A stretch of 64,000 nucleotides of DNA from Natrinema versiforme (lineage in GTDB: Archaea > Halobacteriota > Halobacteria > Halobacteriales > Natrialbaceae). Each line of letters starts with the position of its first letter. Position 1 is the stretch's first letter. A program made the position numbers and the translations under genes. Positions 8,288 through 51,914 of this stretch are shown here, piece by piece. The notes under the pieces are model-generated. The model saw only the letters and a program-made list of their open reading frames with translations. It did no database searches and was not told where the DNA came from. The stretch spans positions 2,480,001 through 2,544,000 of the forward strand of contig NZ_CP040330.1 in assembly GCF_005576615.1 (NCBI RefSeq), written 5' to 3'.

Positions 8288-10356
8288 GCCTGCAGACCGA
8301 CGACAGTGGCGGCTCGGGCATGTCGGCCAGTTCCGACGCGCTCGGCGATCGGTTCTACCCCCTCTACGATCGACTGTTCGGCGAGGATAGCGAGTTCGTC
8401 GGCGACGTCGAGACGAAACTGGCCCAGGCCCGGATGACGGATACGGTCGAACTCTACCTCTCACGGGCGCTCGGGATCGGCTTTATCAGCGGGCTCAGTC
8501 TCTGGCTGATCGGCCTACTGCTCGGCTACGGCATCTTCGCCATCGGCCTCCTCTCGAACGAGGCGCTCATCGGCATCCCGGTCGGCCACGGGCTCTTCCT
8601 CGACATCATCGAGATGCTTCGCGTCCCGGCCGTCGTCTTCGTTACCGGGCTGGTATTCGGGTCGATCGGCTTTGCGATCGGGTTCGGATCGATGGTCGCG
8701 ATCCCCTACTCGCGCGCCTCGACCCGCAAGCGCGAGATCAACATGCTCCTGACCGACTCGGTCTCGTTCATGTACGCCCTGTCGGTCGGGGGGTTGAACC
8801 AACTCGAGATCATCGAGGCGATGGCTGAGGCCGACGACACCTACGGTGAGGTCGCAAACGAGTTCCAGAGCATCGTCAAGGAGACCGAATACTTCGACAT
8901 CGACTACCGAACTGCGATCCGAAAGCAGGCGCTGGAAACGCCGAGCGACGACCTCTCGCAGTTCCTGACCGACATGCTCTCGATCGTCAACAGCGGTGGC
9001 GACATGGAGAGCTTCCTGCAGGACAAGAAAGAAAAGCACATGCGAACCGCAAAGCAGGAACAGGAACTCACCCTCGAGACGCTCGAGTTGTTCGGCGAGA
9101 TGTACATGACGCTGTCCCTGTTCCCGCTGCTTCTGATCATCATCATGGTCGTCATGAAGATGATTCCGGACGCGACCGTGACGGACAACATGCTCTACAT
9201 GGTCGTCTACGGACTCATTCCGATGATCGGCGTCGCTTTCATCGTGCTCGTCTCGACGGTCAAACACGACGAGCCCGGTGACGGCTTCCTCTCGATGGGA
9301 GATACCGATCAGCGGACCGAAACGGGGCAGGACGACGGGCTGTTGAGCCTCGGACTCGTCGAGCAGTTCACCGGCGAGCACAGCGTCTTCGACCGGATCA
9401 AGAACCGCGAGGGGACCTACGAGACGATGGAAGTCCTGCGCAAGCCCCATCTCTTCTTCCGCGACAATCCGTTGATCACCCTCGCGCTAACTGTCCCCCT
9501 GACACTGGTCATCGTCGTCACGGCCGTAGTCAACGGCGCAGCGCCGCTGTCGTGGGCGGAACTCCTCGACAAACCGATCTGGGGGACGTTCCTCTACATC
9601 TACCTGCCGCTGTATATCACCGCGATCCCCCTCGCGATCTTCCGGGAATGGAACGTTCGTCACCGGAATTCCGTCGTCAACAAACTCTCCGAGGACCTCC
9701 GCAAACTCTCGAGTTCGAACGACACCGGACTGACGCTACTCGAGTCATTCAAGGCCGTCTCCGATACCACGAACGGCAAACTGGCCCGCGAGTTCGAGAT
9801 GATGCACACGAAGGTCAACTACGGGATGAGCCTCAAGGAGGCGCTCATCGAGTTCAACAACAAGTACCACATTCCGCGACTCGCTCGGACGACGCGTCTG
9901 ATTACCGAAGCACAGGAGGCGTCGAACCAGATTTCGGACGTGCTCCGAACGGCTGCGACCGCGAGCGAGAACCACGACGATATCGAGCGCGAGCGGAAAT
10001 CCCGAACGCGGATGCAGATCGTGATCATCATCATGACGTTCATGACGGTACTCGCGGTGATTGCGATCCTCAAAACGCAGTTCATCGATACGATGGCCGG
10101 CCTCAACGCCGGCGGGAGCGGTGCCGAGGCCGGTGGATCCAGTGCCGGTGGCGGGGGCGCAACGAGCGGGGCGAACCTCAGCGAGAACATCGACGTCGAC
10201 ATGCTCTCGGTGTTGTTCTTCCACGCGGTGACCTTACAGGCGATCATCTCGGGATTCATCTGCGGCTACATCCGAGATGCCGACCTGCTGAGCGGGTTGA
10301 AATACGCGGTCGGACTGTCGTCGATCGCACTCATCGGCTGGATGCTGGTGGCCTAA
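8284..10356 (+). CDS. Type II/IV secretion platform membrane protein (PilC3/FlaJ/TadC-like)
   Basis: A 690-residue membrane platform with two T2SSF modules, one near residues 155-300 and the other near residues 460-620, each beginning with a cytoplasmic helical domain. About nine hydrophobic helices are visible, for example SLFPLLLIIIMVVMKM and MQIVIIIMTFMTVLAVIAI. It pairs with the ATPase just upstream, overlapping by ATGA. A glycine/serine-rich loop (about residues 610-640) precedes the last helices. The double-module architecture is typical of haloarchaeal PilC proteins. It should sit in the cytoplasmic membrane and couple ATPase motion to pilin insertion. Confidence 0.88.
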   Translation: MSLQTDDSGGSGMSASSDALGDRFYPLYDRLFGEDSEFVGDVETKLAQARMTDTVELYLSRALGIGFISGLSLWLIGLLLGYGIFAIGLLSNEALIGIPVGHGLFLDIIEMLRVPAVVFVTGLVFGSIGFAIGFGSMVAIPYSRASTRKREINMLLTDSVSFMYALSVGGLNQLEIIEAMAEADDTYGEVANEFQSIVKETEYFDIDYRTAIRKQALETPSDDLSQFLTDMLSIVNSGGDMESFLQDKKEKHMRTAKQEQELTLETLELFGEMYMTLSLFPLLLIIIMVVMKMIPDATVTDNMLYMVVYGLIPMIGVAFIVLVSTVKHDEPGDGFLSMGDTDQRTETGQDDGLLSLGLVEQFTGEHSVFDRIKNREGTYETMEVLRKPHLFFRDNPLITLALTVPLTLVIVVTAVVNGAAPLSWAELLDKPIWGTFLYIYLPLYITAIPLAIFREWNVRHRNSVVNKLSEDLRKLSSSNDTGLTLLESFKAVSDTTNGKLAREFEMMHTKVNYGMSLKEALIEFNNKYHIPRLARTTRLITEAQEASNQISDVLRTAATASENHDDIERERKSRTRMQIVIIIMTFMTVLAVIAILKTQFIDTMAGLNAGGSGAEAGGSSAGGGGATSGANLSENIDVDMLSVLFFHAVTLQAIISGFICGYIRDADLLSGLKYAVGLSSIALIGWMLVA

Positions 10357-10357
10357 T

Positions 10358-10888
10358 ATGAGTCGCAAACGAACACGCAGGGGAGGAAAATCCCGGCGGC
10401 CGCGGACGATCTCGATCTCGCTGGATCGGCGGGGCCAGACTACGCAGGATTTCGCCATCGGTATCGGCGTCTTCCTGCTAGCGATCGCCTTCGTCTTCTC
10501 GTTTCTCCCGACGGTCGTGACGCCATTCGACTCGTCGATCAGTGGCGCGGAGACGGCACAAGCCGACCGGATTGCGGACCGAATCGTCCACAACACGTCG
10601 ACTGGATCGGGGAACGAAATCGATCCGACGGCATTCAACACGACGTATGCAAACGGGGATTTGACCGAGAATCTCAGCCTTCGCTCGAGCAATGGACATC
10701 AAATCGATAACGTGAATATCAGTATCGAGACGTTCGGTGACAGTGCCACGATCGATGAGCAGGCAAACCGGACATCCGGTGACGTGTACGACGAGCAGGC
10801 GGCAGCCAGTTCGGCACGTATCGTCACGATCAAAGACGGGTCCGGGAACTGCGACCCCGCCTGTCGACTCGTCGTGAGGGTGTGGTAA
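10358..10888 (+). CDS. Pilin-like protein of the pil operon (DUF7287-like)
   Basis: A 176-residue protein with a basic N-terminus, then RRGQTTQDFAIGIGVFLLAI, resembling an archaeal type III (prepilin) signal with processing after the Gly, followed by an extracellular domain. The start lies one base after the pilC stop. From memory it resembles the haloarchaeal DUF7287 family found after pilB/pilC genes; that name is unverified. It contains two Cys residues near the C-terminus (NCDPAC) that could form a disulfide outside the cell. It is probably a minor pilin or assembly factor. Confidence 0.7.
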   Translation: MSRKRTRRGGKSRRPRTISISLDRRGQTTQDFAIGIGVFLLAIAFVFSFLPTVVTPFDSSISGAETAQADRIADRIVHNTSTGSGNEIDPTAFNTTYANGDLTENLSLRSSNGHQIDNVNISIETFGDSATIDEQANRTSGDVYDEQAAASSARIVTIKDGSGNCDPACRLVVRVW

Positions 10889-47517: not shown

Positions 47518-47982
47518 TCACTCGGACTGTGCGACCGCCGCGACGACGTTCTGGACGTACCGCATGCTCGTCGCGATCGACATGATCCCGTCCATTAGCG
47601 CCTGCTGGGATGCGCCGTCCGGATAGATGCGGTACTCGACCTGCACCGTCTCCGCTTCGCGCAACTGACAGGAGATCCCCTCCTCGTCGAGAAACGTGTA
47701 GAACCCCGGCGTCGCCGCCAGCATCGGTCCGACGTACCGGAGCAACTCGGCGCGTTGCTGATCGTCGCGGAGCAGATTTCTGGTTTCCTCGGTGTCGAAC
47801 CCGCTGCGGCCGACGATTCGAACCGGGCCGAACTCGCCCTCCTTGATCACGTGGACCGGCAGGTGCGAGAGTTCGACCTGAAAATTGAACGCGGTGTCCT
47901 CGTCGGTGTGCTCGGTCACGTCGCGGATCGCCGTGTCGTCGAGCCAGTGGCGGACCTGCGTCTCGCTGATATGGGTTGTCAT
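47518..47982 (-). CDS. Small cytoplasmic protein, possibly DUF2299-like
   Basis: A 154-residue alpha/beta protein of unknown function. It begins THISETQVRHWLDDTAIRDV and has a beta-rich middle (FNFQVELSHLPVHVIKEGEF) and a long C-terminal helix (ALMDGIMSIATSMRYVQNVV). It recalls the archaeal DUF2299 family and the type III secretion chaperone-like fold, from memory only. It is a single gene between the tup operon and the acidic four-gene operon; a TATA-like CCTTATTC lies about 25 nt upstream. Confidence 0.6.
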   Translation of the reverse strand: MTTHISETQVRHWLDDTAIRDVTEHTDEDTAFNFQVELSHLPVHVIKEGEFGPVRIVGRSGFDTEETRNLLRDDQQRAELLRYVGPMLAATPGFYTFLDEEGISCQLREAETVQVEYRIYPDGASQQALMDGIMSIATSMRYVQNVVAAVAQSE

Positions 47983-48149: not shown

Positions 48150-49058
48150 CTACCCGTGCTTGTCCGGCATCGTCGAGTGCCGTGCGGTCCCGCGCATGTC
48201 CGCCCGCTTCGACGGCGGCGGTGCCATCGTCGAGTGGCGACTCGGGCCGCCCGACGCCGAGCCCCGGTTTCCGTCGCTTCCGAGTCCGGATCCGAGGAGG
48301 CCCTCGTCGTCCTCCGCGTCCGTATCGTCCGTCTCCGCTTCCTCGGCCGCGGCTTCGTCCCCGTCCTCGGCATCGGTGGCCGGTTCGTCGGTATCGTCCC
48401 CATCCCCAGCGGATTCGCCGCTGGCGGCCCCCGCACTCGCCGACTCGAGTCGCTCTTTCAGTTCGGAGATTTCGTCGCCGAAGTCGGCGAACGAATCGCT
48501 CATCGCCGATCGGAGACGGTCCCCGATGTCACCGGTGGTCTCCGACTCGTCCGGGTCCTCACTCTCGGCCGTGTCCGCTTCGTCGCTCGTCGATTCGTCC
48601 GCTCCGTCCTCGCTACTCGCCGGTTCGGCGTCCGGTTCGTCGCTGCCGCTGTCGCTCTCCTCGCCGGCACCGCCGGCCTCGGCCCGCTCGCCGATCGTCT
48701 CCCGGAGGTCGCCGACGGCCGCCTCGAGCCCCCCATCGTCCGCTCGATCGGCGAGTTTCGAGAGGTGGAGCAACCGCTGGAGGTCCTCGAGGTTCTCCTG
48801 TTCGCCGCGGGCGATCGCCTCCGGAATCGAGCCCGGTTCGCTCCCGTCCTCGAGGGTGTCCAGCCCGACCGCCGCGAGCAACTCGTCGGGGTCTGCCGAT
48901 TCGAGCAGATCGCTCGCGTCCGCGGCGGCCTCGAGTAGGTCCGTCTCGGCCGACTCGTCGTCGCCGTCCGCATCGCCCCCGGAAACGATCGACCCACTGG
49001 ATGTGTCGGCCCGGTTCAGTACCTCGTGCACCCGATCGTGTAGTTGCGATTCGCTCAT
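48150..49058 (-). CDS. Acidic protein with basic RHSTM-repeat tail (last gene of acidic operon)
   Basis: A 302-residue protein, extremely rich in Asp/Glu/Ser/Ala. Two helical segments stand out: LEDLQRLLHLSKLADRADDG to ETIGERAEAG (about 92-130) and MSDSFADFGDEISELKERLE (about 187-210). The last 33 residues switch to a basic, proline-rich tail with RHSTM twice (SRHSTMAPPPSKRADMRGTA then RHSTMPDKHG). No known domain is recognised. It is 74 bp after the previous gene in the same direction. The tail may be a recognition or targeting tag. This entry is structural description only. Confidence 0.7.
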   Translation of the reverse strand: MSESQLHDRVHEVLNRADTSSGSIVSGGDADGDDESAETDLLEAAADASDLLESADPDELLAAVGLDTLEDGSEPGSIPEAIARGEQENLEDLQRLLHLSKLADRADDGGLEAAVGDLRETIGERAEAGGAGEESDSGSDEPDAEPASSEDGADESTSDEADTAESEDPDESETTGDIGDRLRSAMSDSFADFGDEISELKERLESASAGAASGESAGDGDDTDEPATDAEDGDEAAAEEAETDDTDAEDDEGLLGSGLGSDGNRGSASGGPSRHSTMAPPPSKRADMRGTARHSTMPDKHG

Positions 49059-49132
49059 TGGTCTCTCCGAGATTACCGCGTGGTGTCCGCCTCTTTCCCC
49101 TCTCCGAACGGGGTTCGATGCGTGTTAGTCGA

Positions 49133-49990
49133 CTACTCGGCTTCCGCCTCCGCTTCGGACTCCGACTCTTCGTCCGAATCCGACCCCTCGCCCGTCACCG
49201 TTTCGATGATCTCGTCGGTCATCTCCTCCCGGCTCAAATTCGCCTTCACGCCAACGTCCTTCGCGACCGACTGCAGATCGCTGTAGGACATCACCCCGAG
49301 GAAGTCCTCGAGGGTGTCCTTCCTGAGGTCCTCGAGGTCCTCCACGGACGGCTCGGACTCGTCCTCACCCTCATCGGCCGTATCGGCGTCCTCGTCAGCG
49401 TCTTCGGACGCTTCGGTATCCGGTTCGTCGCTTTCGTCGCTTTCATCATCCGCCTCGTCGGCGACCTGCTCGTCACCGCCGTCCTCCTCTTCCGCTTCGT
49501 CCACCGATTCCTCGTCTTCATCCTCGGACTCCGCCGGCTCCTCGTCTTCGTCCGTCGGTTCCGAGTCCGCTTCGTCCGCCGATTCGTCCTCGGCCTCGTC
49601 GCTCTCGCCGCCGCCGATCCCCTCGAGGAGTCCGTCGACGCTGCTCCCCTCGGTGACGCCCTTGGCCATCGACTCGAGGGACTCGCGGCCCTCCATCTCC
49701 GAGACCGAGTCACGGATGGCGTTCCGAATCGCCGTCGGGAGTTCCGACTGCAGGTCGCCGAGGTCCTTCCCTTCCTCGACGCCCTCGTCGATCGTCTCGT
49801 GGATCTCGCGGCCGATCGCGGTCCCCAGTTCGCGGCCGAGTTGCTCGCCGAACTGGCGGCCGACCGCGGCTCCGATTTCGCTCCCGTCGATGCTGTCCTC
49901 GATGCTGCCGTCGCCGAGCATATCGGCCACGTCGACCTGATTGCTGACCTCTTCGGCGACCATGCTCTTCAGCCCCGATCCGTCACTCAC
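49133..49990 (-). CDS. Glycine-zipper acidic protein with C-terminal Rho-N/SAP-like motif
   Basis: A 285-residue protein. Residues about 40-60 form a perfect GxxxG zipper with six Gly at four-residue spacing (GAAVGRQFGEQLGRELGTAI). A helical region (about 75-115) follows, then about 100 residues of Asp/Glu/Ser low complexity, then a small helical domain (EDLRKDTLEDFLGVMSYSDL, KANLSREEMTDEIIETV) like Rho-N or SAP folds, then an acidic tail. The GTG at 49990 is chosen because GAGGTGAT lies just upstream; another GTG at 49999 is inside that run. It is 56 bp after the previous gene. The function is unknown. Confidence 0.72.
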   Translation of the reverse strand: MSDGSGLKSMVAEEVSNQVDVADMLGDGSIEDSIDGSEIGAAVGRQFGEQLGRELGTAIGREIHETIDEGVEEGKDLGDLQSELPTAIRNAIRDSVSEMEGRESLESMAKGVTEGSSVDGLLEGIGGGESDEAEDESADEADSEPTDEDEEPAESEDEDEESVDEAEEEDGGDEQVADEADDESDESDEPDTEASEDADEDADTADEGEDESEPSVEDLEDLRKDTLEDFLGVMSYSDLQSVAKDVGVKANLSREEMTDEIIETVTGEGSDSDEESESEAEAEAE

Positions 49991-50046
49991 GGCGATCACC
50001 TCGCGTGTGATCCGATTCGGTGGTGTCGCGATTCCGTGTCATGGGC

Positions 50047-50574
50047 TTACTCCTCCTCGGCTTCCGCTTCCATCTCTTCGTCGTCTTCCGTCTCCTCGGT
50101 GGCGTCGTCCTGATCGGACGCCTCTTCCTCGCCCGATTCGGCGTCGCTCTCGCCTTCAGCCTCGGCTTCCGCGTCGCCTTCCTCCTCGGCTTCGCCGTCT
50201 TCGGATTCATCGGGTTCGGCGCTTTCCTCGTCCGCCGATTCCTCGTCCTCGTCTTCGTCCTCGGACTCCTCCGATTCCTCCTCTGCCGTCTCTTCGTCTT
50301 CGGCATCCTCCTCGGATTCGTCGTCCTCGCTCTCCGACTCGGCCTCGTCGCTGCTGAGCAGTTCCTCAACGACCATATCGCCGATCGTCCGGCCGAGGGA
50401 CTCGCCGACCTTCCGGCCGACGAGCGCACCGATCTGGCCGCCCAGCGCCGCGCCGAGGGGCATGTCCCCGTCGATCTCCTCTTCCCACTGGGTCCCTTCG
50501 ACCAGTTGATCGACATCGATGTTTTCCGTGATCTTCTCCGTGTCAATCCGCTGTGTGAGTGATTCGTCGCTCAT
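50047..50574 (-). CDS. Glycine-zipper protein with fully acidic tail
   Basis: A 175-residue protein in two parts. The N-terminal 75 residues hold a perfect glycine zipper with seven Gly spaced by four (Gly41, 45, 49, 53, 57, 61, 65; GAALGGQIGALVGRKVGESL and on), with charged residues on the other face. The remaining 100 residues are almost only Glu, Asp, Ser and Ala. The ATG overlaps the stop of the upstream gene (ATGA). The zipper resembles that of the next gene, which suggests the two pack together. Confidence 0.72.
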   Translation of the reverse strand: MSDESLTQRIDTEKITENIDVDQLVEGTQWEEEIDGDMPLGAALGGQIGALVGRKVGESLGRTIGDMVVEELLSSDEAESESEDDESEEDAEDEETAEEESEESEDEDEDEESADEESAEPDESEDGEAEEEGDAEAEAEGESDAESGEEEASDQDDATEETEDDEEMEAEAEEE

Positions 50575-51914
50575 GATGATGCCTCTGCCTGTGACGTCGC
50601 ATCGGGGCCGCCGCCGGACGCTTCCTCGTCGCTCTCGGGCTCGAGTTGCTCGATCAACTGTTCGATCACTTCGCTGACGACCGTCGCCACGAGTTCCTCG
50701 ACGGGGAACCCGGGGACGAGGCCGGCGAGTTTCTCCTTCAGCCAGCCGGCCGCTCTGGAGAGGGGACCGGGGGTCTCCGCTCCAGTCTCCTCCTCGTCTG
50801 CTGCCTCTTCGGGTTCCGCGGCTTCCTCATCTTCCGCTGCGGATTCTTCATCGGCTCCCTCCTCGGCCTCGGCTGGCTCTCCACCGAAGAGCCCGCGGAG
50901 CCACTCCACGGGCTTGGCGAGGATCGATTTCAGCCACCCGGCGGCCGACGAGAGCGGTCCAGTGGACTCACCGTCTTCGCCCTCTCCCTCAGCCGCTTCG
51001 TCCGCGTCACCCTCTGCTTCGTCACCGCCGATACCGAGCAGACTGGTGAGCCACTCCTTTGGCTTGCTGAGCAGTCCGGTGAGGAACTCCTTCGGTCGCT
51101 CGAGCAGCCCGCTGAGGGCCTCTTTGGCCTTTCCTGGGAGCTGCTTGAGCAGTTCTACCGGCTTACTCAGGAGCGACTTTACCTTGTCCAGCATGGCACC
51201 GGGACCGTCCAGCAGTCCCGTCACCGCCGACAGCAGATTTCCGAGCAGATTGTTCCCGCCCGGTCGCGCCGAGACGTCGAGTTGGACCGGATTCAGGTTC
51301 ACCTCGAGGCCGAGCACGTCGAGAAAGAGGCCGTCGAGGTCGAGGTGGAGGACGCCGGACGCGTCGTCGCCCTCGTAGACGTCTTCGGCGTCCTCGGCGT
51401 GGCCGTCCTCGCGGTCGTCGTCGACGAGGTCCCCGGTGTCCTCGCGTTCGTCCTCGTCTTCGCCGGCTTCCTCGTCTTCGTCGACCTCCTCTTCAATCCC
51501 TTCTTCGTCGGTCTCCTCTTCGTCAGCCTCCTCTTCGTCAGCCTCCTCTTTGGGGGATTCTTCTTCGACTTCCTCCTCAGCCTCTTCCTCGACCTCTTGG
51601 GACCCTTCCTCAGCTTCTTCTTCAGTCTCCGCTTCGGACTCTTGATCCGCTTCCTCAGCTTCCGTTTCGGCTTCTTCCTCGACCTCTTGGGACTCTTCTT
51701 CAGATTCCGATTCAGCCGCTTCGTCACCCTCGGGCGTGTCTTCGGCTTCGGCGTCCTCGTCGGCCTCTTCCATCTCCGCTTGCCCGCCGTCAGTCATCAC
51801 CCGGGGCGGCGGTCCCGCCTCCCGGTCTTCCTCATCGGGACGGCTCGAGGAGCGCTCGACCCTCGCGGGATCCGAACGGTCCTCGCGGCCGTCATGTGCG
51901 AAATCCTTGGTCAT
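50571..51914 (-). CDS. Acidic protein with LGNLL domain and repeated amphipathic KPxEWL helices
   Basis: A 447-residue protein, first gene of the acidic operon. Residues about 45-180 are nearly pure Glu/Asp/Ala/Ser. Residues about 190-237 form a compact hydrophobic domain (LDGLFLDVLGLEVNLNPVQL, then GGNNLLGNLLSAVTGLLDG). I recall similar domains in hypothetical actinobacterial proteins. Then come four amphipathic repeats (LLSKPVELLKQL, LLERPKEFLTGL, LLSKPKEWLTSL, ILAKPVEWLRGL) and two GPLS.AAGWLK segments, separated by acidic linkers. ATG 51914 is used; ATG 51797 is an alternative that removes a charged, proline-containing leader. There is no signal peptide. The function is unknown. Confidence 0.72.
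   Translation of the reverse strand: MTKDFAHDGREDRSDPARVERSSSRPDEEDREAGPPPRVMTDGGQAEMEEADEDAEAEDTPEGDEAAESESEEESQEVEEEAETEAEEADQESEAETEEEAEEGSQEVEEEAEEEVEEESPKEEADEEEADEEETDEEGIEEEVDEDEEAGEDEDEREDTGDLVDDDREDGHAEDAEDVYEGDDASGVLHLDLDGLFLDVLGLEVNLNPVQLDVSARPGGNNLLGNLLSAVTGLLDGPGAMLDKVKSLLSKPVELLKQLPGKAKEALSGLLERPKEFLTGLLSKPKEWLTSLLGIGGDEAEGDADEAAEGEGEDGESTGPLSSAAGWLKSILAKPVEWLRGLFGGEPAEAEEGADEESAAEDEEAAEPEEAADEEETGAETPGPLSRAAGWLKEKLAGLVPGFPVEELVATVVSEVIEQLIEQLEPESDEEASGGGPDATSQAEASS

Follow-up and report, generated by a model that had tools for sequence, protein, structure and literature searches.

Gas vesicles are protein-walled buoyancy chambers. Reviews count 14 gvp genes in haloarchaea (PMC4390858). 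One of the products, GvpC, strengthens the vesicle wall and is not essential (PMC9372576), and loss of another, GvpI, results in extremely long vesicles in Halobacterium salinarum constructs (PMC7688916). We analyzed a 64,000-nucleotide stretch of the Natrinema versiforme genome (the window; contig NZ_CP040330.1, positions 2,480,001 to 2,544,000), which contains four consecutive genes that we call P1, P2, P3 and P4. We conclude that P1-P4 are very probably an accessory module of the haloarchaeal gas-vesicle system, based on their co-occurrence with gvp genes, their gene neighborhood, their loss together with gvp, and the homology of P4 to GvpI.

The distribution of P1 follows that of the gvp genes. 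Among 391 Halobacteria genomes, evenly drawn, gvpA-family genes (PF00741) are found in 162 and P1 in 130. All 130 genomes with P1 also have gvpA-family genes (the lists were compared by hand), and P1 is thus present in 130 of the 162 gvp-positive genomes. At the level of genera, the 40 that have P1 all fall within the 53 gvp-positive genera of 86 (p about 1.6e-13), a comparison from which relatedness is not fully removed. Within the Natrialbaceae, every genome that has the module, as judged by P2, is gvp-positive (89 of 89), and 10 of the 12 module-less genomes have no gvp genes. The gvp clusters of the two module-less, gvp-positive genomes (G001 and G013) lie outside the main Natrialbaceae clade in a tree of gvp clusters.

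The module is widely conserved in this family. Of 125 Natrialbaceae genomes, 108 have the P1 core and 110 have the P3 core, representing 26 and 27 of the 29 genera, respectively. The genes flanking the module vary between loci, and in most Natrialbaceae examined the module is apart from the main gvp cluster. The order P1-P2-P3-P4 on one strand is kept in 32 loci from about 25 genera, with the exception of four loci: L086, in which the P1 core is lost, and L078, L069 and L093, in each of which one P4 end was undetected by this blast search. The original prediction, made from the DNA alone, was to be abandoned if the four genes did not co-occur outside one species, and given this broad conservation it is not refuted on that ground.

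In some lineages the module is found with the gvp genes themselves. A profile search with P1 over all bacteria and archaea led to other haloarchaea, several of which have relatives of P1, of the zipper proteins (P2 and P3) and of P4 inside gvp clusters. For example, in Halocatena pleomorpha (L135), archaeon YIM A00010 (L133) and Halococcus thailandensis (L167), these genes are surrounded by gvpF, G, H, J, K, L and M. In total, 18 distinct loci from several families have the module within or next to a gvp cluster (20 were counted, two contigs having been fetched twice). P1-P4 adjoin gvpA-gvpO in L186 and in two Natrialbaceae loci (L188 and L189), and in the latter two the genes run gvpA-gvpO-P1-P2-P3-P4 on a single strand.

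In the genome that contains the window, the gvp cluster is separate from P1-P4, at a distance of about 0.8 Mb; it is organized as gvpM-L-K-J-I-H-G-F / A-N-O and has no gvpC. According to a 2015 review, gvpC and gvpDE are missing from Halopiger, Haladaptatus, Natrinema, Natrialba and Natronobacterium, which, for reasons it calls unknown, do not form vesicles in culture (PMC4390858). The table of a 2022 review gives gvpACNO for these same species, listing gvpC for Natrialba, Natrinema and others (PMC9501494), which conflicts with PMC4390858, with PMC3403918 and with the cluster described here.

Three congeners (G063, G054 and G070) have lost both the module and gvp, and the flanking CbiX and PQQ genes persist in all three, CbiX with 92-95% identity. 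In G070, P1-P4 and most of a DUF2299 gene are gone from between intact PQQ and transporter genes. In G063, P1-P4 and more are gone, and in G054 decayed pieces of P1 and P3 are left. That these scars differ suggests that the module was lost independently in each of these gvp-less genomes. Because the gvp cluster of the window genome is about 0.8 Mb away, a linked deletion does not account for the joint loss.

P1-P4 could instead be an independent particle or membrane-coat system that is correlated with gas vesicles merely through ecology, and the free-standing position of the module in most Natrialbaceae would fit such a system. The nesting of the module in gvp clusters in several families, the homology of P4 to GvpI, and the losses together with gvp that left distinct scars make this extremely improbable. 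The original prediction had proposed a cytoplasmic particle, a membrane coat or an organelle-like compartment. The link to a cytoplasmic protein particle holds, and a free-standing organelle or coat was rejected on the co-occurrence, linkage and joint loss with gvp and the paralogy of P4 and GvpI, the gvp-embedded loci going far to refute it.

P4 provides a connection to a known gas-vesicle protein. Compared with profiles of in-cluster GvpI (the product of the gene between gvpH and gvpJ), P4 gives an hhalign probability of 98.7 and an E value of 3.5e-16. Its basic, STMP-kind tail also ends the GvpI of the window genome's own gvp cluster, a 307-amino-acid (aa) protein at the gvpI position with the tail RNPTAAATIP...RYSTVP. 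P4 is not a short, very basic protein; it has 302 aa and is acidic overall, with only its tail basic. By this profile homology, P4 is an additional copy of the extended form of GvpI, so named after PMC3403918 (e.g., Nmag_0338 and Htur_2370), and it is a GvpI paralog and not the orthologous GvpI.

In the window, the module comprises four consecutive minus-strand open reading frames in the order P1-P2-P3-P4, with the following features:

50571..51914, minus strand: P1, 447 aa, acidic, with a conserved LGLEV...LLGNLLSAV domain, KPxEWL helices of amphipathic character and a further amphipathic helix at the C-terminus
51195..51362, minus strand: P1 core domain, VLHLDLDGLFLDVLGLEVNLNPVQLDVSARPGGNNLLGNLLSAVTGLLDG, with a mean column identity of 68% in the alignment of relatives
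50880..51194, minus strand: P1 region of amphipathic helical repeats, containing four KPxEWL-type motifs, predicted helical
50047..50574, minus strand: P2, 175 aa, with a seven-glycine zipper and then a long acidic tail
50380..50454, minus strand: P2 glycine zipper, G41-G65, zipper glycines with little or no variation among 33 sequences
49133..49990, minus strand: P3, GTG start, with a glycine zipper, an acidic linker and a putative SAP/Rho_N-like C-terminal domain
49811..49885, minus strand: P3 glycine zipper, seven glycines in register, predicted 37-residue helix
49187..49348, minus strand: P3 C-terminal three-helix domain, possibly SAP/Rho_N-like from weak profile and fold matches
48150..49058, minus strand: P4, 302 aa, GvpI paralog, with a helical N-terminal half, an acidic middle and a basic ...RHSTMAPPPSKRADM...RHSTMP tail
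48153..48251, minus strand: P4 conserved basic STMP tail, with invariant S, T, P, R and D positions

As originally predicted, the four genes lie on the same strand, with an ATGA overlap between P1 and P2 and gaps of 56 bp (P2-P3) and 74 bp (P3-P4). The predicted acidity of the proteins was also borne out (acidic residues make up 34% of P1, 47% of P2, 38% of P3 counted from an internal ATG, and 29% of P4), and inspection by eye agreed that no signal peptide is evident in any of the four. None of P1-P4 matches a Pfam or NCBIfam family at its cut-off. The module is not described in the accessible literature, which does note GvpC-less clusters, most subscription papers being outside the search. 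No paper in the literature searched, mostly non-subscription, mentions gas vesicles and glycine zippers together. Within these libraries and papers, the description of the set as an undescribed system stands. A DUF2299-like gene (47518-47982) is directly downstream of the module; it is kept there in many relatives and absent in others.

The glycine zippers of P2 and P3 appear to be selected features. Each protein has seven glycines in perfect four-residue register, compared with a maximum of five in 2000 shuffles per protein. The original prediction had the register right in both proteins and one glycine too few in its count of seven and six. Across 32 relatives these glycines vary little or not at all, indicating that the zipper pattern is under selection. 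We retain the earlier view of these segments as probably prone to self-association. In the 276-aa form of P3, Gly 31, 39, 43, 47 and 51 are invariant and Gly 35 nearly so. We set the start of P3 at the GTG at 49990, given that the alignments of several relatives begin at this codon (e.g., MSDGSGLKNLVAEEV in L088). Profile comparison of P2 with P3 (hhalign 97.6%) indicates that the two are paralogs of each other.

The model of P3 contains a zipper helix of 37 residues, for most of which the predicted local distance difference test score (pLDDT) exceeds 85, and, at the C-terminus, a three-helix unit with a pLDDT of about 94. Of 26 members, 13 match the Rho_N profile weakly at their C-terminus (best E 9.5e-4), and Foldseek gives weak matches of its fold to Rho, SAP and DEK domains, all with E > 1. 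Profile and fold thus weakly suggest a SAP/Rho_N-like domain. This domain is absent from all of the 12 module-less and 14 GvpC-bearing genomes searched. The paralogy of P2 and P3, this end of P3 and the tie to gas vesicles were not part of the original prediction.

The combination in P3 of a glycine-zipper helix with a SAP/Rho_N-like domain raises the possibility that the module, instead of coating the wall, uses zipper oligomers and the SAP-like domain to anchor or cluster completed vesicles, which could be attached to one another, to the nucleoid or to the edge of the cell. A tether would fit the long acidic linkers, and the persistence of the gvp cluster in genomes without the module would also be expected. 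GvpI acts in assembly, however, and P4 is its paralog; we consider anchoring rather unlikely.

P1 contains four [KR]PxE[LFW]L motifs, at residues 251, 273, 284 and 334. The motif number is the one originally predicted, and none of 20000 shuffles of the motif region reached even two. The AlphaFold model of P1 as a whole is of low confidence (pLDDT 60, predicted template modeling score 0.28), with a pLDDT of about 70-83 for the helical repeats in the first part of the region. The length of the repeat region differs between relatives, and very long P1 variants occur (771 aa, L183:7988-10303; 621 aa, L167:4996-6861), the second with repeated segments that, by eye, resemble carboxypeptidase-regulatory-like domains. 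In L086 (G066, about 9900-10400), an internal deletion has taken the core domain and the helices out of P1, with P2, P3 and the gvp genes still present, making this a natural P1 mutant. Second copies of the P1 domain, with in-frame stops and apparently decaying, are found at G315:C2:335314, G387:C1:923644, G350:C106:13644, G377:C113:4372 and G086:C13:488814. A tblastn search of plasmids with the P1 core gave no match, although the search is insensitive, since Haladaptatus plasmid loci (L147 and L151) exist.

Relatives of the P1 core also occur in bacteria, outside of any gvp context, as small proteins whose hydrophobic N-terminus is of the kind typically seen in exported proteins. Six loci from Actinobacteria, Chloroflexi and Bacillota (L139, L152, L154, L159, L171 and L173) have the domain in such apparently exported, single-gene proteins, a family for which the copy of Pfam used has no model.

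P1 and a multi-repeat GvpC are not found together in the genomes sampled. Multi-repeat GvpC (PF05465) is present in 14 of the 391 genomes, all of them gvp-positive and none with P1, and the whole module is absent from all 14. One P1-positive genome (G301) has a single weak PF05465 match (E 7e-4). PF05465 was not found in the window genome, and P1, which has no match to any Pfam family, does not have the GvpC repeat. We placed 69 gvp clusters in a tree (GvpF, L, A and G; FastTree), including 13 usable detected GvpC-type clusters and that of G013, whose gvpC was recognized by eye. All 14 of these GvpC-type clusters are in one clade (support 1.0). Clusters with neither P1 nor GvpC are scattered among the P1 clusters, with 8 parsimony changes over the three states, and from these it follows that both proteins are optional. 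The exclusion between P1 and GvpC is therefore real, but it is essentially one split between gvp-cluster lineages. Many independent swaps, as might be read from the counts (0 shared vs 14 and 130), are rejected by the single GvpC clade.

The type of cluster with respect to GvpD and GvpE was rejected as the sole cause of this exclusion, since 6 of the 14 GvpC-bearing genomes are without true GvpD. True GvpD is found in none of the P1-positive genomes tested, compared with 8 of the 14 with GvpC, and with the SAP-like domain of P3 as a nucleic-acid binder, the module might regulate gvp expression where clusters are without GvpD and GvpE. Given that six GvpC-bearing genomes have neither GvpD nor P1, that P1 and the zipper proteins look structural, and that the evidence for a SAP domain is weak, such a regulatory function seems distinctly improbable.

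A GvpC-like coat role for the module is plausible by analogy. We tentatively suggest, as a possibility short of an even chance, that the outer coat formed by GvpC was invented a second time, without homology, in P1, which as a wall protein of amphipathic helices would, together with two zipper proteins and a second GvpI, replace GvpC in most gas-vesicle-encoding haloarchaea. Replacement is favored by G013, a member of the Natrialbaceae with a GvpC-type cluster and no module, and by the make-up of P1, which like GvpC is a run of amphipathic helices of variable number. In the mechanism that we favor, P1 would bind the vesicle wall through these helices and reinforce or shape it, standing in for the GvpC of other clusters. 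P2 and P3 would oligomerize through their glycine zippers, their acidic tails would hold the assembly soluble, and the SAP-like end of P3 could bind a partner, either nucleic acid or protein. As a second GvpI, P4 might tune vesicle growth or tie the accessory proteins together.

Several observations weigh against an accessory gas-vesicle function, and a coat function in particular. Several gvp-positive genomes have neither P1 nor GvpC, and the module is thus not required for persistence of a gvp cluster. Species with GvpC-less clusters have been reported as vesicle-negative (PMC4390858). The P1 core is poorly predicted structurally. Because P1 and GvpC are separated by a single lineage split, their exclusion is weak evidence for functional replacement, and the coat role rests mainly on analogy.

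Additional features of P1-type gvp clusters were observed. A small protein with two CPxC/CxxC-type pairs (zinc-ribbon-like) is encoded between gvpO and P1 in four loci (L182:9339-9692, L183:7592-7933, L184:6695-7030 and L190:8694-9029) and has no Pfam match over the cut-off. In the gvp cluster of G000, GvpO (L180:11551-12090) has, besides its GvpO domain, a DUF5763 domain at the N-terminus (E 1e-17), and similar CxxH-like N-termini are visible in other P1-type clusters.

The module makes the question of the vesicle-negative, GvpC-less species testable. Encoded away from the gvp cluster in many genomes, it is a ready candidate for the part missing in these species. P1-P4 may also offer new wall proteins for engineered vesicles, in which GvpC is the main handle today.

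Compared with known systems, the module is closest to the haloarchaeal gvp set of the H. salinarum type (gvpACNO / gvpDEFGHIJKLM), with which it shares the homology of P4 to extended GvpI, its co-occurrence and, in some lineages, its location inside gvp clusters. In contrast to that set, none of the 14 described gvp genes corresponds to P1, P2 or P3, and in most of the Natrialbaceae examined the module and the gvp cluster are unlinked. P4 is homologous to extended GvpI (Nmag_0338 and Htur_2370; PMC3403918) along most of its length and has the same basic ST-P tail. It differs in having a shorter tail and in being an additional copy that is not part of the gvp cluster, and the window genome has both. 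P1 resembles GvpC (PF05465) in its variable runs of predicted helical segments and its acidic stretches, and in some clusters it is in the direction of gvpA transcription at the place expected for gvpC. However, no sequence similarity to GvpC was detected, the repeat unit is different, and P1 has an extra LLGNLL domain. That core domain is shared with the bacterial LGLEV...LLGNLL single-gene proteins (Nocardioides, Mycobacterium, Salipaludibacillus and Chloroflexi), which differ from P1 in being apparently exported and in having neither a gvp context nor zipper partners.

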